From positions 4,036,001 to 4,100,000 of the forward strand of contig NZ_CP012661.1 of NCBI RefSeq assembly GCF_001620265.1: 64,000 nt of DNA, given 5' to 3'. Each line of letters starts with the position of its first letter. Position 1 is the first letter of the stretch. Below the pieces are notes generated by a model. That model saw nothing but the letters and a program-made list of their open reading frames with translations. It was not told the DNA's origin and searched no databases. Made by a program: the position numbers and the translations under genes. The DNA comes from Frigidibacter mobilis. GTDB lineage: Bacteria > Pseudomonadota > Alphaproteobacteria > Rhodobacterales > Rhodobacteraceae. This document shows, one piece after another, positions 46,603-57,202 of the stretch.

Positions 46603-47970
46603 TCAGCGTGCGGGAATACCTGACCGCGTGGCAACGGTGGCATCGCCTACCGGCAACCTGACGGATGCCTCGAACCCCGACAAAGCGCCGGGACGCGGGG
46701 ATCTCAGAACCAGCGGGCTATCGATCCGATCCGCGATGGCGGCGACAATGGCGAGCCCAAGCCCGCTGCCATCGGTGCGGGCATCCGCGCGCTCGAAGCG
46801 GGCGGTTAGGCGAGTGAGAAGCTCAGGCGGCAGCACGGGCCCGTCATTGGCGACGATCAACCGCCCGTCCGGCGTCAGGGTCACATCGACCGGGGCGGCC
46901 CTGGCGCCGTGCCGCACGGCGTTGTCCACGAGGTTGCGGCACAAGATGCCGAAGGCGTCGGGGTCGAGGTCCGACATCACCGGCGATGACGGCAGCGTCA
47001 GGGTGATGCGGCCCGGCGCGGCGGTGCGGGTGATATCCTCCACCACGATGCGCGCGACGGGGCGCAGGTCGGCGCTGCGGTCCAGCCGCAGCTGGCCGCC
47101 CTCGGCCCGGGCCAGCTGCATCAGGCGTTCGGAAAGCCGGGTAAGCCGCTTGAGCGTGGCCTCGATCTCGGCCGCGCGGGCGGCGGCGGCGGAGTCCGGG
47201 GTTTCCGTCTGCAGGCGCTGGGCTTGCGCGATGGCGCCGGCCAGCGGCGTGCGCAGCTCATGCGCGGCGTTTGCGGCAAAGCTGCGTTCCGCCTCGAAGG
47301 TGGCCTTCAGCCGGGCCAGCAGCGCGTTCAGGGTAACGGCAACCGGCGCAATCTCGGACGGAATGCCCCCGCCGGGGACGGGCGAGAGGTCGCGGGCGGT
47401 GCGCGCCTCCAGCTGGCCGCGAAAGCGCCGCAGCGGGGCAAGGCTGGCGCGGACGGCCAGCACGATGCACAGCAGCGCCAAGGGCACCACCACCAGCAAC
47501 GGCAGGCCAAGGCCCATCTGGATTTCGCGCGCGACGTCGGCACGGTGGTCCAGCGGCTCGGCAACCGTGATGCGGATGGTTCCCTGCAAAGCTTCATCGC
47601 TGAACAGCCGGTGGCTCGCGGTCAGCCGGAAGCCGGGTCCGTCATAGGCCGGGAACACCGCGGGGTCGGCTGCGTGGGATTGCAGCAGGATCCGCCCCTC
47701 GGCATCGCGCACGATATAGGTGAAGAACTCGTCATGCGTGCGGATCGCACCAAGGCGCTGCGTCACGCCATCCTCCTCGCGCCCGACGATATCGACAACG
47801 GCCAGCGGCAACAGGCGCTGCGCGGTTTCCTGCAGGGCGGAGTCGAAGACCTCGTCCATCTCGTGTCGCAGCAGCAGCGCCGTGACAGAGGCGGCGGCGA
47901 TCCACAGCACCGTCAGGAGCGCACCCAGCGACATCGCCAGCCGGGCCTGCAGGCTGCGCGGCAGCGTCAT
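46603..47970 (-). CDS. Sensor histidine kinase (QseC/PmrB-like)
   Basis: This 455-residue kinase has two membrane helices (SLGALLTVLWIAAASVTALL near the start and GLPLLVVVPLALLCIVLAV near residue 170) flanking a periplasmic sensor, then HAMP, HisKA with FAANAAHELRTPLAG, and HATPase (RNLVDNAVRHG; GSGLGLAIVAAIADR). I begin at the ATG at 47970 (MTLPRSLQ), which overlaps the regulator stop by 4 bp. Its signal is unknown; the divergent PepSY and iron-redox genes suggest metal or redox control. Confidence 0.9.
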   Translation of the reverse strand: MTLPRSLQARLAMSLGALLTVLWIAAASVTALLLRHEMDEVFDSALQETAQRLLPLAVVDIVGREEDGVTQRLGAIRTHDEFFTYIVRDAEGRILLQSHAADPAVFPAYDGPGFRLTASHRLFSDEALQGTIRITVAEPLDHRADVAREIQMGLGLPLLVVVPLALLCIVLAVRASLAPLRRFRGQLEARTARDLSPVPGGGIPSEIAPVAVTLNALLARLKATFEAERSFAANAAHELRTPLAGAIAQAQRLQTETPDSAAAARAAEIEATLKRLTRLSERLMQLARAEGGQLRLDRSADLRPVARIVVEDITRTAAPGRITLTLPSSPVMSDLDPDAFGILCRNLVDNAVRHGARAAPVDVTLTPDGRLIVANDGPVLPPELLTRLTARFERADARTDGSGLGLAIVAAIADRIDSPLVLRSPRPGALSGFEASVRLPVGDATVATRSGIPAR

Positions 47971-48626
47971 GGTTTCCCCAGCCGATAGCCCATGCCGCGT
48001 TCGGTCTCGATGACCTGCGGCCCCAACTTCTTGCGCAGGCGACTGACATGCACCTCGATGGTGTTGCTCTCCACCTCGGTGTCGAAGGCATAGAGCTTCT
48101 CCTCCAGCTGCGCCTTGGACAGCAGCTGGCCGGGGCGCGACAGGAAGGCCTCGAAGAGGGCCCATTCGCGCGCGGTCAGCGGCACCGGCTTGCCCTGCAC
48201 CCGGATGCTGCGCGCGGCAAGGTCGATGTCCAGCGGGCCGTGGCTGATGATCGGGTTGGGGTTGCCCGAATAGCGCCGGGCGACCGATCCGATGCGGGCC
48301 GACAGCTCCGACAGGTCGAACGGCTTCACGAGGTAATCGTCGGCGCCGGCGTTCAGCCCCTCGATCCGGTCCGACACCTGATCGAGCGCGGTGAGGATGA
48401 TCACCGGCGTCACGTCGCCGCGCGCGCGCAGGGCTTTCAGGAAGCCGATGCCGCGGCCATCGGGCAGCATCAGGTCCAGCAGCAGCAGGTCATAGGCGGC
48501 CCCCGCCATCGCATCGCCCGCCGCATCCAGCCGCGTGACCCAGTCCACCGACTGCCCGTCGCCCGCGATCTGGTCGCGCACGGCGGCGCCCAGAACCGTG
48601 TCGTCCTCGATAAGCAGGATGCGCAT
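47967..48626 (-). CDS. OmpR-family response regulator
   Basis: This 219-residue regulator has acidic residues E8, D9 and the phosphorylation site D51 (LLLLDLMLPDG), the switch lysine in LVKPFD and a winged-helix output domain (LTAREWALFEAFLSR; SNTIEVHVSRLRKKLG). Coupled to the kinase by ATGA overlap. I start at MRILLIEDD, 48626. It is divergent from the PepSY-reductase operon, its likely target. Confidence 0.92.
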   Translation of the reverse strand: MRILLIEDDTVLGAAVRDQIAGDGQSVDWVTRLDAAGDAMAGAAYDLLLLDLMLPDGRGIGFLKALRARGDVTPVIILTALDQVSDRIEGLNAGADDYLVKPFDLSELSARIGSVARRYSGNPNPIISHGPLDIDLAARSIRVQGKPVPLTAREWALFEAFLSRPGQLLSKAQLEEKLYAFDTEVESNTIEVHVSRLRKKLGPQVIETERGMGYRLGKP

Positions 48627-48764
48627 GTGTGTGTCCTTTTCGCTGACCTTTCCTGACTGACCGGGCTGACGCAAGGCTGACGGCGCGGTGGCCTGCGCTT
48701 CAGGCTGCCGTCAGCTTCGCCGCGCATAGGAGTGGCGACGGGCCCGCATCGTGGAGTTTGGCTG

Positions 48765-49076
48765 ATGAAGAAGACATTGACAGTTCTCGGCTTTCTCGCG
48801 GTTTTCCCGGCCGGGGTGGCGTATGCCGATGACGATTGCTTCGTGCCGATGGCGGATTGGCAGCCGCGGGATGCGGTGGCGCGGCTGGCCGAGGAGAACG
48901 GCTGGTCGGTGCGGCGGATCAAGATCGACGATGGCTGCTACGAGATCGACGGCACCGATGCCACGGGCCGCCGGATCGAGGTGACGGTCGATCCCGCGAC
49001 GCTGCAGGTGCTCGAGTTCGAATATGAGGATGACAGTCACCGCCGCCGGGACCGGGGCGCGCCCAGCCATGACTGA
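48765..49076 (+). CDS. Secreted PepSY-domain protein
   Basis: This 103-residue protein has a signal peptide (KKTLTVLGFLAVFPAGVAYA) and one PepSY-type domain (DAVARLAEENGWSVRRIKID, then YEIDGTDATGRRIEVTVDP). Such proteins are commonly the first target of an adjacent two-component system. The ATG at 48765 has a GGAG motif about 10 nt before it. It overlaps the start of the reductase gene by 8 bp. Confidence 0.85.
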   Translation: MKKTLTVLGFLAVFPAGVAYADDDCFVPMADWQPRDAVARLAEENGWSVRRIKIDDGCYEIDGTDATGRRIEVTVDPATLQVLEFEYEDDSHRRRDRGAPSHD

Positions 49077-50401
49077 ACGGGTCGATGTCGCGCCGGGCCT
49101 GTCCATCCCCCGCGTCCCGGCCCTCGGCAGCGCGCTGATCTGGACCGGCCCCGCGCTCGTCGTCCTTCTCTGCTGCGCGGCGGCGGTGCTCGGCTTCACC
49201 ACCTACGCGCCCTACGGGTCCGAGGCCGCCTTTGGCATCGCCGTCGGCGCCGCGGCCGTCGTTGCCATGGCCCAGACGTTGATCCTCGCGGCGCGCCCGC
49301 GGCTGCTGGAGCCGCTGTTCGGCGGGCTCGACCGCATGTACCGGGTGCATAAATGGCTGGGGATCTCGGCGCTGGCGCTGATGATCCTGCACAGCCAGAT
49401 CGAGCCCGACTTTGAGCGGGTGGTGCGCGAGACCGATCTGGGCGAGCTTGCAAGCGAGGTGGGAGAGCTGGCCTTCAACGCGCTGCTGGCGCTGATCGCG
49501 GTCAGCTGGTTCCGGCGGTTGCCCTTCGTGGGGCTGGAGATCCCCTATCAGATCTGGCGCTTCAGCCATCGGTTCATGGGGCTGCTGTTCGCCGTCATCG
49601 TGTTCCACCAGTTGTTCGTCGATCTCCCCACCGGCGTCGATCCGTCGCTGTCGGTGATGCTCAACGGCTTCGGCCTCGCCGGGATCGCTGCGTGGGTGCA
49701 GACCGAATTCCTTGCCCCGCGGCTGCGGCGGCGCGAATTCACTGTCAGCGCTGTTACCCCGCAGGGCGACACCACTCTGGTGACACTGGCGCCCATGGGC
49801 CGGCCAATGCGCTGGCGGCCGGGGCAGTTCGCCTTTCTCCGCGCGCCCGAGGCGGGGCTGGCCGAGCCGCATCCCTTCACCATCGCCAGCGCCCCGCGCG
49901 CCGACGCTTCGCTCAGCATGTCGATCCGGGCGCGGGCGACTGGACCCGGCGGCTGCCGGGTGCGCTGCGCGCAGGGATGGCCGTGCAGGTCGAGGGCCCT
50001 ATGGCCGCTTCAACTTCCGCAGGGGCAGCGCGCGGCAGGTTTGGCTGGCGGGCGGCGTCGGGATCACCCCCTTCCTGGCCTGGGCCGAGAGTCTGACTGC
50101 CGCAGACCGGCGCGACATCCACCTTGTCTATGCGCTTCGCACACCGGAGGAGGCGGTCGGGGTCGACACGCTGGCCGCCGCGGCGGCGCGCAACCCGCGC
50201 TTCAGCTATCGGGTGGTGGCCTCGGCGCGCGATGGAAGGCTGACGGCCGAGGGGTTGATCGGCTCGGCGCCCTTCCCGGTGGGCAAGGCCGACCTGTGGT
50301 TCTGCGGCCCGGCGGGCCTGAAGGACGGCATCCTTGCGGGGCTGAGGGCGCAGGGCCAATCCCCGCGGCGGGTGCGGTTCGAGCATTTCGAGTTTGCCTG
50401 A
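49069..50401 (+). pseudogene. Ferric-reductase-like flavocytochrome, two frameshifts
   Basis: The membrane part has about six helices and haem-ligand histidines (YRVHKWLGISALALMILHSQ; FSHRFMGLLFAVIVFHQLF), as in ferric reductases and NADPH oxidases. An FAD domain follows (WRPGQFAFLRAPEAG; PHPFTIASAPR) and an NAD(P)-binding domain (LAGGVGITPFLAWAE; WFCGPAGLKDG). The frame breaks at about 49940, where a G seems to be missing, and at about 50001, where GGGCCCTATGG likely lacks a C. Restoring both gives 444 codons. I suspect sequence errors. It would move electrons from NAD(P)H across the membrane. Confidence 0.82.
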
Positions 50402-50413
50402 GGGCCTCGCCAG

Positions 50414-50440
50414 ACGCCCCGCCCCCGGCGGGGCGTTTTT
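50414..50440 (+). terminator. Rho-independent terminator after the reductase gene
   Basis: ACGCCCCGCC, loop CCC, GGCGGGGCGT, then a run of five T. The 10-bp GC-rich stem with T tract, 12 bp after the stop codon, is a textbook terminator on the plus strand. Confidence 0.9.
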
Positions 50441-50536
50441 CCTGACGACAAGCTGAAGCGGGAATCGCCGCGCTGTCAGCAAGCTTTCAGGCCCAGTCCC
50501 CAGATTGGACCCAGCAACCGAACAGGAGTTCCTGCC

Positions 50537-50881
50537 ATGAGAAAGACCCTTGCCCTGCTTGTCGCCTCCACGGCGCTGACCGCCACCCTTGGCTTTGCTG
50601 CCTGGAGCGCGACGCGCGAAAGCCCCCGGCCCGTTGCCGCGCTGTCCGAGGATGGGACACCGGCGCTGCCGTTGATCCTGATCAGCGACGATGACGACGA
50701 TGATGACCGCAAAGGGCTTTGGGGGCACGACGATGACGACTGCGGCGACGATGACGACGACGATGATGATGACGGCGGCTGCCGCGGCGGTGCCCGCAAT
50801 CCCGCGCCCGCCGGTAGCAAGCTGCCGCCGCAGAACGGCCTCTTCGGAACCGGCGCCCCGCCGCAGGTTCAGGTGAACTGA
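50537..50881 (+). CDS. Secreted aspartate-rich protein
   Basis: This 114-residue protein has a signal peptide (RKTLALLVASTALTATLGFA). Two poly-acidic runs (SDDDDDDDRKG; CGDDDDDDDDDGGC) are flanked by a His-Asp (WGHDDDDC) and two Cys. No family is recognised. Such acidic stretches bind divalent cations, so a periplasmic metal buffer is plausible. It lies between the terminator and the DUF2271 gene and has its own promoter region. Confidence 0.75.
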   Translation: MRKTLALLVASTALTATLGFAAWSATRESPRPVAALSEDGTPALPLILISDDDDDDDRKGLWGHDDDDCGDDDDDDDDDGGCRGGARNPAPAGSKLPPQNGLFGTGAPPQVQVN

Positions 50882-50951
50882 GCCAAGCCGCGGCGCGGCG
50901 GAACCCGCTGCGCCGCGCGTTCGACCCTGACCCAACCCCGGAGATCCCTCG

Positions 50952-51422
50952 ATGAAATCGCTTCTCGCCACCCTCGCGCTGACCACGGCGCTGACCCTTC
51001 CCGGCCTTGCCGTGGCACGCCCCGTCACGCTGACCACCACGCTGAGCAGCTATGGCGGCGATGGCGCCTATCTCGCGCTCTATGTCACCGACCCGTCGGG
51101 CGCCTATGCGGGCAGCCTGTGGATGGCGGGCGGCAAGTCGAAATATTACGAGCATCTGACCGACTGGTACCGCGCTACCGGGGGGGACACCGCGCAGGTC
51201 GATGGCATCACCGGCGCCAGTGTGGGTGCGGGCCGGACGCTGGAGATCACGCTCGACCTTGCCGATGCTCTGTTCGACGCGGGCTACACCCTGCATATCG
51301 ACGCCGCGGTCGAGGACATGCGCGACAGTCCGAACGAGGTTGCGGTGCCGCTCACGACAAAGGGCGCGGGCACGCCCGTGAAGGGCCGCCGCTACGTCGC
51401 CAGCTTCGCCTACGACATGTAA
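50952..51422 (+). CDS. Secreted DUF2271 protein with a flavinylation motif
   Basis: This 156-residue protein has a signal peptide (KSLLATLALTTALTLPGLAVA) and the DUF2271 domain (GAYLALYVTDPSGAYAGSLW; KYYEHLTDWYR). Residues 84-90 read DGITGAS, matching the Dgx(S/T)GA(T/S) motif that ApbE enzymes modify with FMN, with S90 as the likely attachment residue. The apbE gene is two genes downstream, with the electron-feeding reductase in between. I infer a periplasmic flavoprotein electron carrier. Confidence 0.86.
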   Translation: MKSLLATLALTTALTLPGLAVARPVTLTTTLSSYGGDGAYLALYVTDPSGAYAGSLWMAGGKSKYYEHLTDWYRATGGDTAQVDGITGASVGAGRTLEITLDLADALFDAGYTLHIDAAVEDMRDSPNEVAVPLTTKGAGTPVKGRRYVASFAYDM

Positions 51423-51434
51423 GGGCAAAGGGCC

Positions 51435-53637
51435 ATGATCCGCGCGTTCCATCGTTGGCCGGGTCTTCTGGCTCTGGCCCTAGTCACTCTGCTGGCGCTC
51501 AGCGGCGCGGCGCTGTCGGTGTTTCCGGCCGCCGAGCGGCTGGCCGCGCCGCAGGCCGAGGCAGGGCTGACCGTGGCCACGCTGGCGGAGCGTATTCGGG
51601 CGGTGTATCCGGGGGTGGAGCAGATCCGCCGCGCGCCCTCGGGCCAAATCACCGCCTATTGGTTCGATCAGGGCACACCCGGCGCGGCCGTGATCGACCC
51701 GGCCACGGGTGCGGGCGCGGGCTCTGCCGACCCCAACCAGACCGAGCGCTGGCTGACCAATCTCCACCGCTCGCTGTTCCTCGACGACACCGGCCGCCTT
51801 GTGATGGCGGCGGGCGCTGCGGCGATGCTGGTGCTGGCCCTGTCTGGCGCGGCGCTGGTGCTGCGGCGCATGGGCGGCTGGCGGCGCTGGTTCGCGCGCC
51901 TGCGCGGCCCGCTGGCGGGGAGGCTGCATGTGCAGATTGCGCGGGTTGCGGTGCTGGGGCTGCTGCTTTCTTCTGCCACGGCCCTGTGGATGACCGCCTC
52001 GACCTTCGGGCTGCTGCCGGACGGGGCCGCCGCTTTGGCGATGCCCGAGGTGAGCGGCCAGACGGGGGCGGGGTTTGCGCAGATGCCGACGCTGGAGGCG
52101 ACGCCGGTGGCAGAGCTGCGCGAACTGAGCTTCCCCTATTCCGGCGACGCGACGGATGTGTTCACGCTGAAGACCGATCAGGGCACCGGCACTCTGGATC
52201 AGGGCACCGGGGCGCTGCTGGGATGGGCCGATTTGGGCGCCTGGGAGCGTGTTTCGGAAACCATCTACATGCTGCACACGGGTCAGGGCGCCGTCGCGCT
52301 TGGGCTGCTGCTGGGGCTGATGGCGCTTGGCGTGCCGGTGATGGGCACCACGGGCGTGCTGGTCTTACTGGCCGGTCGGCGTCGGCGGCCGCGGATCCGT
52401 GGCAACCAGCCGGCGGGGCGTGCCGAGACGATCCTGCTGGTCGGCAGCGAGGGCGGCGGCACCTGGGGCTTTGCCGCGACGCTGCATGCCGCGCTGACGG
52501 CGGCCGGGCAGAGCGTTCATGCCGCGCCGATGTCGGCTTTCGCACCGGAGAGCTATGCGCGCGCCAAGCGCGTCATCGTGCTGACCGCGACCTATGGCGA
52601 GGGTGATGCCCCGCTTCGGCCAAGGGGTTCCTGGACCGGCTGGCGGCGCTGGACCGCGCGCCGGAGATGCCGCTGGCCGTGCTTGGGTTCGGTGACCGCA
52701 GCTTTACCGAATACTGCGCCTATGCGCAGGCGGTGGCGACGGCAGCGCAGGCGAAGGGTTGGGCGGAGCTGCTGCCCTTGGACACGGTGGATCGCCAGTC
52801 GCCGCAGGACTTCGCCCGCTGGGGCCGCGCCCTTGGGCAGGTGCTGGGGACGCCTCTGGAACTGGCGCACCAGCCGGTCACGCCCGCGACACAGGCCCTC
52901 ACCCTGATCTCGCGCCGCGACTATGGCGCCGAGGTGCAGGCCCCGACGGCGATCCTGCGCTTCGCCCTGCCGAAGAGGACCCTGTGGCAGCGGCTGACCG
53001 GGCGGGGTTTGCGCGCTTCAATGCCGGCGACCTGATCGGCATCCTGCCCGAGGGATCACCGGTGCCGCGCCTCTACTCGCTGGCCTCGGCGCGCCGCGAC
53101 GGGTTCGTCGAGATCGTGGTGAAGCGGCAGCCGGGCGGCCTGTGCTCCACCCAGCTGACCGCGCTGGAGCCGCACGGCACCGTCACCGCCTTCCTGCGCC
53201 GCAATCCGGGGTTTCAGCCGGGCAAGGGCCGCGCGCCGCTGATCCTCATTGGCGCGGGTACCGGCATCGGCCCCTTGGCGGGCTTCGTGCGCGGCAATGC
53301 GCGGCACCGGCCGATCCATCTGGTCTTCGGGATGCGGCACCCTGACAGCGATTTCCTGTATGGCGAGGAGATCGCGGGCTGGCAGCGTGATGGCCGGCTG
53401 ATCCGGCTGGTCACCGCCGTCTCTCGCGGCAAGCGCCCTCTCTACGTGCAGGACGCGCTGCGCGCCGAGGCGACCGAAGTTGCCGGGCTGATCCGGGACG
53501 GCGCGCGCGTCATGGTTTGCGGCGGACGGGGCATGGCGTCGGGTGTGGCGGAGGCGCTGGCCGAGATCCTGGCGCCGCTGGGGCTGACGCCCGCGGCGCT
53601 GAAGGCAGAGGGGCGGTATGTCGAAGATGTTTACTGA
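51435..53637 (+). pseudogene. PepSY-TM / flavodoxin / FNR reductase fusion, two frameshifts
   Basis: The N-terminal PepSY-type membrane module (AFHRWPGLLALALVTLLALSG; SLFLDDTGRLVM; WRRWFARLRG) spans the first 330 residues. A flavodoxin domain follows (VLTATYGEGDAP; AVLGFGDRSFTEYCAYAQAV), then a ferredoxin-NADP reductase-like domain (LYSLASARRDGFVEIVVKRQ; GAGTGIGPLAGFVRGN; DALRAEATEVAGLIRDGARV). Breaks lie near 52608 (CCCC for CCCCC) and 53005 (GGGG for GGGGG); restoring two bases gives 734 codons. It is predicted to pass NADPH electrons via FAD and FMN across the membrane to periplasmic acceptors such as the DUF2271 protein. Confidence 0.85.
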
Positions 53638-54600
53638 CCTGCGGCGCCACGCGCTGAATGGCCCGACGATGGGCACCCGCTGGTCGGCGCTGTTCTTCGC
53701 GCCGCAAGGGTGCGATCCGGAGCCTGTCCGCATGGCGCTACAGGCGGCGGTCGATGAGATCGACGCCCAGATGTCCAGCTGGAATCCCGGCAGCGACCTG
53801 ATGCGCCTGAACGCGGCGCCGGTGGGGCGTGGGTCGCGGTGCCGGACCGGCTGCGGCAGGTGCTGGCGATAGGGCTGCAGATCGGCCGCGCTTCGGGCGG
53901 GACGTTCGACATCGGCATGGGCGACGCGGCCCGGGCCTGGGGCTTCGGGCCGGAGGCGGCGGCGCCAGAGCGGATCCGGGAGGCGATGCGCGCGAGCCGG
54001 ATGCCCGCGCATGAGGCGCTGGAGATGGGCGCGGGCCTTGTGCGGAAACGGGCGCCACTGACGCTCGACCTCAACGGCATCGCCAAGGGCTACGGCGTGG
54101 ACCGGCTGGCCGAAACGCTGGTGCGGCATGGTCTGCACGCGGGACTTGTCGGCATTGACGGCGAGATGCGGGCGCTTGGCCTGCGACCGGGCGGCGAGCC
54201 CTGGACCGTTGCGGTCGAGGCGCCGGACCCGGAACGCCGCGCGCCCCATTCCATCCTGGCGCTGCAGGACGCGGCCGTGGCGACCTCGGGCGATTACCGG
54301 CATTGGGTGGAGGTGCAGGGCCGCCTGCTGTCGCATACGATGGACCCGGCCCGCGGCGCGCCGCTGCTGACGTCGCCCGCCTCGGTGACGGTGGTCCATG
54401 CCAGCTGCATGCAGGCGGACGCCTGGGCGACGGCGCTGATGGTCATGGGAAGCTTGGAGGGCGCGGCAATGGCGCGTAAGCAGGGGCTGGACGCGCTGTT
54501 CATCGACCGGATCGGCGATGGCTTCCGCGAGACCCGGGTGGGGCGGCTGTTCGAGGCCGGGGATGGAAGCGGGGGAGATGCAGATGACTCCGGTACGTGA
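53618..54600 (+). pseudogene. apbE: ApbE-type FAD:protein FMN transferase, one frameshift
   Basis: This enzyme attaches FMN covalently to Ser/Thr of exported flavoproteins. The N-terminal MGTRWSALFF and DAQMSSWNPGSDLMRLN, then GGTFDIGMGDAARAWGFG, LDLNGIAKGYGVDRLAE, LVGIDGEMRALG and HTMDPARGAPLL, are ApbE hallmarks. The frame breaks near 53826 (GTGGGGCGTGG should have one more G), giving 327 codons when restored. It lacks an obvious signal peptide, so it may act in the cytoplasm or be anchored by another route. The DUF2271 protein upstream is the probable substrate. Confidence 0.87.
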
Positions 54601-56484
54601 TCGTCTGAACATCGCCCTTCTGGGGCTGGCGCTGCTGGGGCTGGTGGGCGGCCTTGGCCTCTGGCTCGCTGGGCAGCCGGCGCTGGCGGGGCCGGTCTGG
54701 GCGGCGGGCGTCGTGCCGGTGCTGGCGGCGCTGTGTGTCGAGATCCTGCGGAGCCTATGGAAGGGCGAGGTCGGGCTCGACATCGTTGCCGCGCTGTCGA
54801 TGTCGGCGGCGCTGCTGGTCGGCGAGACGCTGGCGGCGGCGGTGGTCGCGCTGATGTATTCGGGCGGCACCTTTCTGGAGAGCTTCGCGCAAGGCCGGGC
54901 GCGGCGCGAGATGAGCGACCTGCTGTCCCGCGTGCCGCGCACCGCCACCCGGCACCGGAACGGTGCGCTGGAGGAGGTGGCGCTGGACGTTCTCGCGCCG
55001 GGCGATCTGCTGCTGATCCGGCAAGGCGATGTGGCCCCCGTGGATGGCACGGTGGAGAGCGCGGGCGCGATGCTGGACCAGTCGGCGCTGACCGGCGAGT
55101 CGATGCCCATGCAGTTTGCGCAGGGGCGGAGGTGATGAGCGGCTCGACCAATGCTGGCGAGGCCTTTGACCTGCGCGCCACGCGGGCGGCGGCCGACAGC
55201 ACCTATGCCGGGATCGTGCGGCTGGTCGAGGCGGCGCAAGCCTCCAAGGCGCCGATGGCCCGGCTGGCGGACCGCTATTCGCTGCTGTTCCTGGCGGTGA
55301 CGGTCGCGCTGGCGATAGCCGCCTGGTGGTTCACCGGCGATCCGATCCGCGCGGTTGCGGTGCTGGTGGTGGCGACCCCCTGTCCGCTGATCCTGGCGGT
55401 GCCGGTGGCCTTGGTGGCCGGGCTGTCACGGGCGGCGCATTTCGGGGTGCTGATCAAGGGCGCGAAGCCGCTGGAGGCGCTGGCGCGGATCAAGACCCTG
55501 ATCCTCGACAAGACCGGCACGCTGACTGACGGGCGCCCGCAGATCGTGCGGATCGACCGGCTGGGCGAGATGGCCGAGGACGAGATCCTGCACTTCGCCG
55601 CGGCGCTGGATCAGGCGTCGAAACACCCGGTCGCGCAGGCCATCGTCGCAGCGGCGCAGGCGCAGGGCATCGCCTTGCCGGTGCCGGGAGGCGTGGTGGA
55701 AACCCCCGGTGAGGGCGTCGCTGGAACCATCGATGGGCGGCAGGTCATCATCGGGGGGGCAGGGTTCGTGGCGGCGCAGGCCGGGATTGCGGTTCCCGAG
55801 GCCGCCGTCATCGCGGCGGGGGCGGTGGTGGTGTCGGTGGCGGTGGATGGCAAGCTGGCGGGGCATCTGGTGATGGCCGACGCGCTGCGCGCCGGTACGG
55901 CCGATCTGCTGGCGGGGCTGCGCAAGCTGGGGGTCGCGCGCATCGTGCTGGCCACCGGCGATCGCCGCGCCGTGGCCGAGGCGGTGACGGAAGGGCTGGG
56001 CCTCGACGCGGTGCACGCCGATCTGGCGCCGGGCCAGAAGGTGGCGCTGGTGCTGGCAGAGCGGGCGGGCGGCCCGGTGATGATGGTCGGCGACGGCGTC
56101 AACGATGCGCCCGCGCTGGCGGCGGCCGATATCGGCGTGGCGATGGGGGCGCGCGGGGCGGCGGCCTCGGCCGAGGCGGCGGATGTGGTGCTGCTGGTCG
56201 ATCATCTGGATCGCCTCTTGCCGGGGATCGAGATCGCGCAACGCTCTCGCCGCATCGCGATGGAGAGCGTGGTGGCCGGGATCGGCCTGTCGGTGCTGGG
56301 CATGATCGTCGCCGCCTTCGGCTACCTGACCCCGGTGCAGGGGGCGCTGCTGCAAGAACTGATCGACGTCGCGGTGATCCTGAACGCGCTGCGGGCGCTG
56401 CGGATCCAGCCGGGGCGAACCGCTGCGGGGCCGGACGATGCCGCGTCCGGAGCCCCGCACCGGGCGACATCCACCCCCGCATAA
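54584..56484 (+). pseudogene. Heavy-metal P1B-type ATPase with TPCP motif, one frameshift
   Basis: The metal site is ATPCPLILAVPVALVAGLS, a TPCP rather than CPC motif, the pattern assigned to the P1B-5 group (linked to Ni or Fe). No N-terminal HMA domain is present. Other motifs: SALTGESMPMQF, DKTGTLTDGRPQ and [20 protein letters not shown]. The frame breaks near 55127 (CAGGGGCGGAGG should have one more G); restored length is 633 codons. The start at 54584 follows GGGGGAG. A C-terminal hemerythrin domain, seen in some P1B-5 members, is absent. Its neighbour is a VIT transporter. Confidence 0.84.
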
Positions 56485-56500
56485 CCCGGAAGGCGCCCCG

Positions 56501-57202
56501 ATGAGCAGACTGTCCCATTCCGAAATCCACATGGTTCACCGCATCGGCTGGCTGCGCGCGGCGGTTCTGGGGGCGAATGACGGCCTCGTCTCCACCGCGA
56601 GCCTTGTGGTCGGGGTCGCTGCGGCAGGATCCGGGCGGCCCGAGATCCTGATCGCCGGTCTGGCCGGCCTTGTCGCAGGGTCTATGTCGATGGCGGCCGG
56701 AGAATATGTCTCGGTCAGCTCGCAGACCGACGCGGAACAGGCCGACATCGCCCGCGAGACCCGCGAGCTGCAGGACGCGCCCGGGGCAGAGCTGGAAGAG
56801 CTGACGCAGATCTATGTTGCGCGCGGGCTTGACGAAGCCCTCGCCCGGCAGGTTGCGATCCGGCTGACCGAGACAGACGCGCTTGGCGCCCATGCGCGGG
56901 ACGAGCTTGGCATTTCGGAGACGGCGACTGCCCATCCAATCCAGGCAGCCATAGTATCGGCGGCGACCTTCGCTGTCGGGGCGGCCATCCCGCTCATCAT
57001 CGCAGCGCTCGTGCCTGTTGCACAGATCACTCTCATTGTCGCGGCCACGACTCTCTTCGCACTTTCCGTTCTCGGCGGGCTTGGGGCGTCAGTCGGCGGT
57101 GCGGGAATCGTCAAGGGCGCGGTCCGCGTTACCTTCTGGGGAGCGCTTGCCATGGCTGCGACCGCAGCAGTGGGTATGCTCTTCGGTGTAACTGTCGGCT
57201 AA
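56501..57202 (+). CDS. VIT1/CCC1-family Fe2+/Mn2+ transporter
   Basis: This 233-residue membrane protein begins SHSEIHMVHRIGWLRAAVLG, followed by ANDGLVSTASLVVGVAAAG and AGLVAGSMSMAAGEYVSVSS, the classical VIT motifs. A cytosolic helical segment (DAEQADIARETRELQ) and three further helices follow. Family members export or sequester ferrous iron or manganese. It lies 16 bp after the TPCP ATPase and likely belongs to the same operon, which points to iron as substrate of the whole block. Confidence 0.92.
   Translation: MSRLSHSEIHMVHRIGWLRAAVLGANDGLVSTASLVVGVAAAGSGRPEILIAGLAGLVAGSMSMAAGEYVSVSSQTDAEQADIARETRELQDAPGAELEELTQIYVARGLDEALARQVAIRLTETDALGAHARDELGISETATAHPIQAAIVSAATFAVGAAIPLIIAALVPVAQITLIVAATTLFALSVLGGLGASVGGAGIVKGAVRVTFWGALAMAATAAVGMLFGVTVG

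Follow-up and report, generated by a model that had tools for sequence, protein, structure and literature searches.

A 64,000-nucleotide stretch of the 4.99-Mb genome of Frigidibacter mobilis (contig NZ_CP012661.1, positions 4,036,001 to 4,100,000), referred to here as the window, carries at positions 46603-57202 an operon unit built around a secreted DUF2271 protein, the flavin transferase ApbE and a PepSY-type membrane reductase. The unit is best explained as a mobile, two-component-regulated type of PepSY-like flavinylation system that would act outside the cytoplasm to reduce and handle a metal, most likely iron; judged from the sequence, this reading is given a probability of roughly 0.55. 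An earlier note on the same DNA had described the narrower block 48765-54600, in which it placed ApbE, a reductase, a flavocytochrome and a PepSY protein. All of these are present by Pfam, the flavodoxin part of the reductase scoring below its cut-off, and three of the genes are split over reading frames. The unit is wider on both sides, with a minus-strand two-component system at one end and a P1B ATPase and a VIT1-family transporter downstream (Pfam); these had been missed, as had an aspartate-rich secreted protein inside the block, the mobility of the unit and the frame breaks. In order along the window, its features are:

46603..47970, minus strand: sensor histidine kinase with 2CSK_N, HisKA and HATPase_c domains (Pfam; start inferred from alignment)
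47967..48626, minus strand: OmpR-family response regulator (Pfam; nearest NCBIfam models PmrA/QseB, below their cut-offs; start inferred)
48663..48683, no strand: candidate response-regulator box, a GGCTGAC 7-base direct repeat with an 11-base period (repeat search)
48765..49076, plus strand: secreted PepSY_2 protein (PF13670, 93.7 bits)
49024..50403, plus strand: ferric-reductase-like flavocytochrome with Ferric_reduct and FAD_binding_8 domains (Pfam; frame-broken in the assembly)
50420..50440, plus strand: terminator-like hairpin with a T-run, 3' of the ferric reductase gene (one site, where shuffles expect 0.5; weak alone)
50537..50881, plus strand: Asp-run secreted protein with a leader, 21 Asp, 2 Cys and the conserved C-terminal tail NPAPAGSKLPPQNGLFGTGAPPQVQVN (no Pfam domain)
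50952..51422, plus strand: DUF2271 protein with a Sec-type leader, DGITGAS motif and the Ser90 codon at 51219-51221 (PF10029, 121.6 bits)
51435..53637, plus strand: PepSY_TM-flavodoxin-FNR membrane reductase (Pfam/NCBIfam; frame-broken in the assembly)
53618..54600, plus strand: ApbE, a FAD:protein FMN transferase, no export signal (PF02424; frame-broken in the assembly)
54585..56484, plus strand: P1B heavy-metal ATPase, motif TPCPL in the fourth transmembrane segment (Pfam/NCBIfam; frame-broken in the assembly; start approximate)
56501..57202, plus strand: VIT1/CCC1-family transporter (PF01988, 220.7 bits)

Conservation was assessed in the best 80 of 319 loci obtained from a scan of genome contigs; truncated loci were excluded from the counts, so that gene content refers to the 76 of the 80 loci with enough flank and downstream genes to 68 of the 80. 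The kinase, the response regulator, the PepSY_2 gene and the reductase (as scored) were each present in 74 of the 76 loci, and ApbE in 75. Because the gene order recurs across the 80 loci kept of the 319, chance is excluded as the origin of the grouping. The core was also seen in three copies within the single genome of Tropicibacter alexandrii (L040, L053 and L071), and a near-identical operon of Rhodobacterales type occurs in an assembly titled Enemella evansiae (L069), which is likely mislabelled or contaminated.

The DUF2271 protein carries the sequence pattern of an ApbE substrate, as had been noted from the letters alone. It matches PF10029 at 121.6 bits against a cut-off of 27.3, and the motif [DN]GITGAS, which includes Ser90, is present in all 80 loci. 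A Sec-type leader is likewise found in 80/80, with a hydrophobicity of at least 1.85 in every case and at least 2.0 in 74, and no RR pair occurs within the first 25 residues of DUF2271 across the 80 loci. In the reductase, which begins with the PepSY_TM domain at 51435, the flavodoxin match (PF00258) reaches 21.9 bits, under the cut-off of 25, and the FNR part is recognised as a piece of NAD_binding_1 whose nearest NCBIfam models, far under their cut-offs, are CysJ-type flavoproteins. Four histidines of the membrane domain (H6, H111, H165 and H282) are invariant in 61/61 aligned relatives of 700-800 residues, which is consistent with two haems in the PepSY_TM domain. Since a PepSY_TM (PF03929) protein is encoded beside ApbE and DUF2271, the operon falls among the PepSY-like flavinylation systems. 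The earlier note had said that such loci are known from comparative genomics, and they are indeed described in PMC8238504, where the published PepSY-like clusters include DUF2271 (2833), NAD-binding domains (1077), VIT1 (167) and MsrQ-like proteins (108).

The slot after PepSY_2 is not constant: a ferric-reductase-like gene occupies it in 34/76 loci and cytochrome b561 in 30/76 (b561 identity being a Pfam assignment on one representative), and neither was found in 12/76. The two genes thus exchange in one position, a swap beyond the descriptions in the published text, and the slot may serve for electron input. A flavinylation motif elsewhere in the operon was considered and set aside, no conserved [DNE]xx[ST]GA[ST] being found in the proteins scanned: there was one match in 79 reductases, three in 55 P1B proteins, none in ApbE, the first PepSY_2, VIT, FRE, b561 or the kinase (the response regulator was left out of the scan), and none in the 79 proteins encoded directly before DUF2271.

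That ApbE modifies the secreted DUF2271 protein, as the earlier note had proposed, is not straightforward, because the enzyme lacks an export signal and its presumed substrate is exported. An export signal is found in the operon ApbE of 0/76 loci; the N-terminus before the catalytic domain has a median of 16 residues, the highest 11-residue hydrophobic mean is 0.92, and RRxF is absent from all 76. The ApbEs of 19/19 further loci of the same type are likewise leaderless, and so is an operon-type ApbE at a contig end (G108, L149). Leaders were called from hydrophobicity and twin-arginine patterns rather than with a trained predictor, and a control set was drawn from the same genomes, consisting of 46 ApbEs none of which adjoins DUF2271. 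Export signals were found in 45 of these 46. Forty of the controls all have the twin-arginine pattern, and 39 of them reach a hydrophobic mean of at least 1.6, the control L252 lying just below that line yet having a twin-arginine leader; three further controls have a leader or lipobox, and another two have twin-arginine leaders. The ApbE search took in 51 of the 62 genomes with a DUF2271 match. In 11 of the 51 (completeness 95-100%; G060, with a partial ApbE, left out of this count) the only full-length ApbE adjoins DUF2271 and is leaderless, and the DUF2271 of those genomes retains GITGAS or GATGAS; if DUF2271 is flavinylated there at all, the enzyme is a leaderless one. Leaderless ApbE as a peculiarity of this branch was rejected, as other DUF2271 clusters share it. 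Elsewhere in the phylum sample, ApbE is found in 20 of 34 DUF2271 loci, and 19 of the 20 are leaderless by inspection, the exception being an ApbE-DUF2271 fusion protein that bears a leader (L231, genome G507); by the bare threshold two pass 2.0, namely the fusion and an ApbE whose long start was misread. Because of these 19/20, flavin loading by a leaderless ApbE may be a rule for DUF2271 clusters in general.

We tentatively suggest, with somewhat less than even confidence and from leaders and genome content, that DUF2271 would receive its covalent flavin mononucleotide (FMN) in the cytoplasm from the leaderless ApbE and then pass through Sec with the flavin attached. An extracytoplasmic supply of flavin adenine dinucleotide (FAD) is needed for the known periplasmic route of ApbE, and the chains carried by Sec are regarded as unfolded and free of cofactor; in most bacteria, the flavin supply of extracytoplasmic flavoproteins is unsettled. 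If true, a redox cofactor would be delivered to the periplasm without FAD export and without twin-arginine translocation, and the pairing of a leaderless ApbE with an exported substrate makes the question of flavin delivery testable directly with two genes. According to a review of ApbE, most of these enzymes are apparently secreted and leaderless ones are named as acting inside the cell (PMC12052999). In searches of paper text, no description of the leader mismatch, or of this operon, was found; a figure of PMC8238504 may mark ApbE leaders. Membership in the PepSY-like systems is unaffected by the leaderless enzyme, because the cluster rule in PMC8238504 requires a leader in at least one target gene only.

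A different account would have the leaderless ApbE working in the periplasm, by non-classical export or by carriage with a partner, which would dissolve the compartment puzzle. The apbE from A. ursilacus that was employed together with DUF2271 was described as signal-peptide-truncated (PMC8238504), the fusion of locus L231 bears a leader, and Alteromonas also has a DUF2271-COG1477 fusion (PMC7190382); we nevertheless regard it as unlikely, given the 76/76 loci without leader, RRxF or hydrophobic stretch and the assignment of leaderless enzymes to the cytosol in PMC12052999. Less probable still, and in our view very unlikely, is that the operon ApbE modifies a cytosolic protein and leaves DUF2271 without covalent flavin. 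Known leaderless ApbEs do act on intracellular targets, as in the Klebsiella fumarate reductase (PMC12052999); however, the scan of the other operon proteins, which excluded the response regulator, gave no conserved motif, the [ST]GA[ST] site is kept by DUF2271 in 80/80 loci, and ApbE has been reported to flavinylate a DUF2271 protein (Meheust et al. 2021, PMC8238504). Cytoplasmic loading of DUF2271 remains the account that we favour.

Directly 5' of DUF2271 lies the gene for the Asp-run secreted protein, of 114 residues and without a Pfam domain. This position holds an Asp-run protein in 45/80 loci and a PepSY_2 protein in 33/80, neither being found in 2/80 (L109, one of the two, lies at the end of its contig); in the 45 Asp-run loci the longest Asp run has a median of 9 and a maximum of 21. 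Both forms end in the common tail NPAPAGTvAPPqNGLFGnGapPqVqVN, so that a single conserved tail is combined with a head of either the Asp-run or the PepSY_2 type, an architecture beyond the descriptions in the published text. Among 52 distinct tail DNAs the entropies of the three codon positions are 0.27, 0.23 and 1.02, the variation being concentrated at the third, and tails on differing heads share 84% protein identity versus 24% over the 40 residues upstream; therefore selection acts on the tail peptide, and the head is exchanged. PepSY_2 forms from Cupriavidus and an enterobacterial plasmid have other, related-looking tails ending in TKPQVQIR, ATKPQVEIR and GRPTVTVE. A search with the Asp-run protein gave 310 homologues; none of the 120 matches listed has a Pfam domain, and their names are 'hypothetical', 'uncharacterized' and, once, 'small secreted hydrophilic protein'. 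Further copies of the tail in the genome itself were discounted, the three weak matches having E values of at least 0.6 and a stop in each. The exchange of heads on one tail points to a metal-holding task common to both: each head would bind a metal cation, with the tail as the docking site for a common partner. PepSY proteins that bind metal are mentioned in PMC12714742.

Regulation is suggested by the divergent two-component system. The GGCTGAC repeat at 48663-48683 lies in the divergent promoter region and is a candidate response-regulator box; some 7-base repeat with an 11-base period occurs in 57 of 76 homologous divergent intergenic regions versus 8.7 expected after shuffling, counts to be read with the relatedness, and hence non-independence, of these regions, with repeats that are differing sequence variants, and with a 9-base period that also appears in 38/76. 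The hairpin at 50420-50440 suggests that the Asp-run and DUF2271 genes form a separate transcription unit. A second box 5' of the Asp-run gene was rejected, the 11-base period being present there in 9/77 regions versus 11.1 expected. The regions 5' of the gene with the common tail do contain 7-base repeats with a 12-base period in 62/77 and a 9-base period in 38/77, which any conserved sequence could explain. In the kinase, positions 37-40 form a candidate periplasmic ExxE, with E37 in 75/77 sequences and E40 in 72/77, and D43, E48, E81, E138 and an E or D at 60 and 65 are invariant in 77/77; conserved acidic residues of this kind do not identify the ligand.

Metal transport genes accompany part of the loci. 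A P1B homologue lies near 43/68 loci, VIT1 near 37/68 and both near 35/68, and in three of the 43 (L055, L074 and L081) the P1B protein is only about 35% identical to that of the window. The larger piece of the window P1B ATPase scores above the cut-off of the NCBIfam cadmium-family model. The motif ATPCPL, found in the fourth transmembrane segment of 47 of 55 P1B proteins, may mark the P1B-5 class (Nia, Ni/Fe); PMC4932525 does not contain it in its main text.

Besides being conserved and modular, the unit is mobile, travelling on conjugative RepABC plasmids. Among 72,556 plasmid records, 97 contain a DUF2271 relative, a count inflated by related plasmids (38 of the 97 are Pseudosulfitobacter records); 71 of the 97 are typed conjugative, and in two plasmid stretches the operon lies within a few kilobases of repABC. 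Between Mesorhizobium (L079) and Labrenzia (L082), the 3651 bases from DUF2271 to ApbE show 99.92% identity. Such spread on conjugative plasmids suggests a trait under selection in marine Rhodobacterales. More distant versions are found on Cupriavidus replicons and an enterobacterial plasmid. The Salmonella Cubana plasmid NC_021819.1 (L115) has a version with DUF2271, PepSY, ferric reductase, VIT1 and a two-component system, with insertion sequence elements nearby, and Klebsiella and Citrobacter plasmids have DUF2271 genes of the same identity. A paper on a 102-kb Dinoroseobacter RepABC plasmid reports heavy-metal annotations and, in its text, does not report the present operon (PMC9426580). 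A phage origin was set aside, there being zero matches among 50,697 phage records.

In the mechanism that we propose, the kinase would sense a periplasmic cation, perhaps with its response adjusted by the PepSY_2 protein encoded alongside, and switch the operon on. NAD(P)H would pass electrons to the CysJ-like FNR part and the flavodoxin domain, and two b-type haems on the four invariant histidines would carry them over the membrane to reduce the FMN that cytosolic ApbE would already have attached to Ser90 of DUF2271; a second membrane cytochrome, ferric-reductase-like or b561, may feed the same or a parallel path. The chain from NADPH to a periplasmic flavoprotein in the earlier note is in keeping with the anatomy, and essentially published (PMC8238504), while the electron flow itself stays a prediction. 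The acidic secreted partner, with either head on the common tail, would hold metal for reduction or buffering, and in loci that have them, the P1B ATPase and VIT1 would export metal from the cytoplasm.

Several observations weigh against this reading. The ExxE of the kinase is without its second Glu in 5/77 sequences, including both from Cupriavidus, and the PepSY/histidine kinase module DbfRS of V. cholerae is unresponsive to iron (PMC12714742). P1B is absent from 25/68 loci and VIT1 from 31/68; ApbE was not found in the 18.4-kb stretch examined of the enterobacterial plasmid version; one ApbE unlinked to DUF2271 (G202, L281) is also leaderless; and in two of the 11 single-ApbE genomes (G003 and G095) R or A replaces the leading D/N of the motif. 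In the window itself, moreover, four operon genes are frame-broken: those for the ferric reductase, the PepSY-flavodoxin-FNR reductase, ApbE and the P1B ATPase are each divided over two or three frames. These breaks would fit an operon that is decaying and inactive in this genome, an alternative that we hold to be rather unlikely. The kinase, response regulator, PepSY_2, Asp-run, DUF2271 and VIT1 genes are all open, and relative to Frigidibacter albus (L032), whose DUF2271 protein is 97% identical, all six breaks are losses of single bases (at about 49937, 49997, 52614, 53003, 53830 and 55127) adjoining runs of 3-4 equal bases, which resembles assembly error; in F. albus the same four genes are single open frames of 459, 839, 327 and 655 codons, counted from the first possible start. 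Losses in sequencing or assembly are thus more likely than decay. Somewhat improbable, too, is an assimilatory iron reductase, in which the flavin chain would reduce ferric iron and VIT1 or another carrier would import the ferrous product. Export is the general role of P1B ATPases and of VIT1/CCC1 proteins, and the divergent two-component system is tied to this branch in 74/76 loci, both of which speak against uptake, as does DUF4198 (PF10670), which is frequent in the published clusters (PMC8238504) and of which a search in the F. mobilis genome found none. For clusters of the PepSY-like and MsrQ-like kinds that contain VIT1, iron uptake has nonetheless been suggested (PMC8238504), and the DUF2271 loci of Caulobacter (PMC11870441) and Alteromonas (PMC7190382) are iron-limitation genes. 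Extracytoplasmic reduction and handling of metal under two-component control is the explanation retained here.

Compared with known systems, the operon shares with the PepSY-like flavinylation systems (PMC8238504) ApbE, DUF2271 with [S/T]GA[S/T], a PepSY_TM reductase with a NAD-binding domain and, sometimes, VIT1 or MsrQ-like proteins; it differs from the systems described there in its two-component regulator, the protein with an Asp-run or PepSY_2 head on the common tail, the P1B ATPase, the slot exchanged between b561 and ferric reductase, the leaderless ApbE and the lack of DUF4198 in its own genome. With the Fur-controlled DUF2271-DUF4198-PepSY loci of Caulobacter (CCNA_03155-03159, a Fur target that matters under ethylenediaminetetraacetate; PMC11870441) and Alteromonas (PMC7190382) it has in common DUF2271, a PepSY membrane protein and a link to iron, whereas the other partners and the regulator differ; these loci are set apart by their descriptions rather than by sequence, and phylum-sample clusters without the two-component type have DUF2271 scores of at most 23 bits with the profile of this branch. 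DbfQRS (PMC12714742) and the Fe(II) sensor BqsRS (PMC12666569) resemble it in having a small secreted PepSY protein beside a two-component system and acidic periplasmic sensor residues; here, in contrast, the neighbouring operon is a predicted flavin electron chain, and the ExxE iron motif is partly conserved. Finally, the dihaem reductase FoxB (PMC11334425) likewise has a PepSY_TM domain with four invariant histidines, consistent with two haems, whereas in the operon this domain is joined in one protein with flavodoxin and FNR domains, and the reductase has DUF2271 as its partner.

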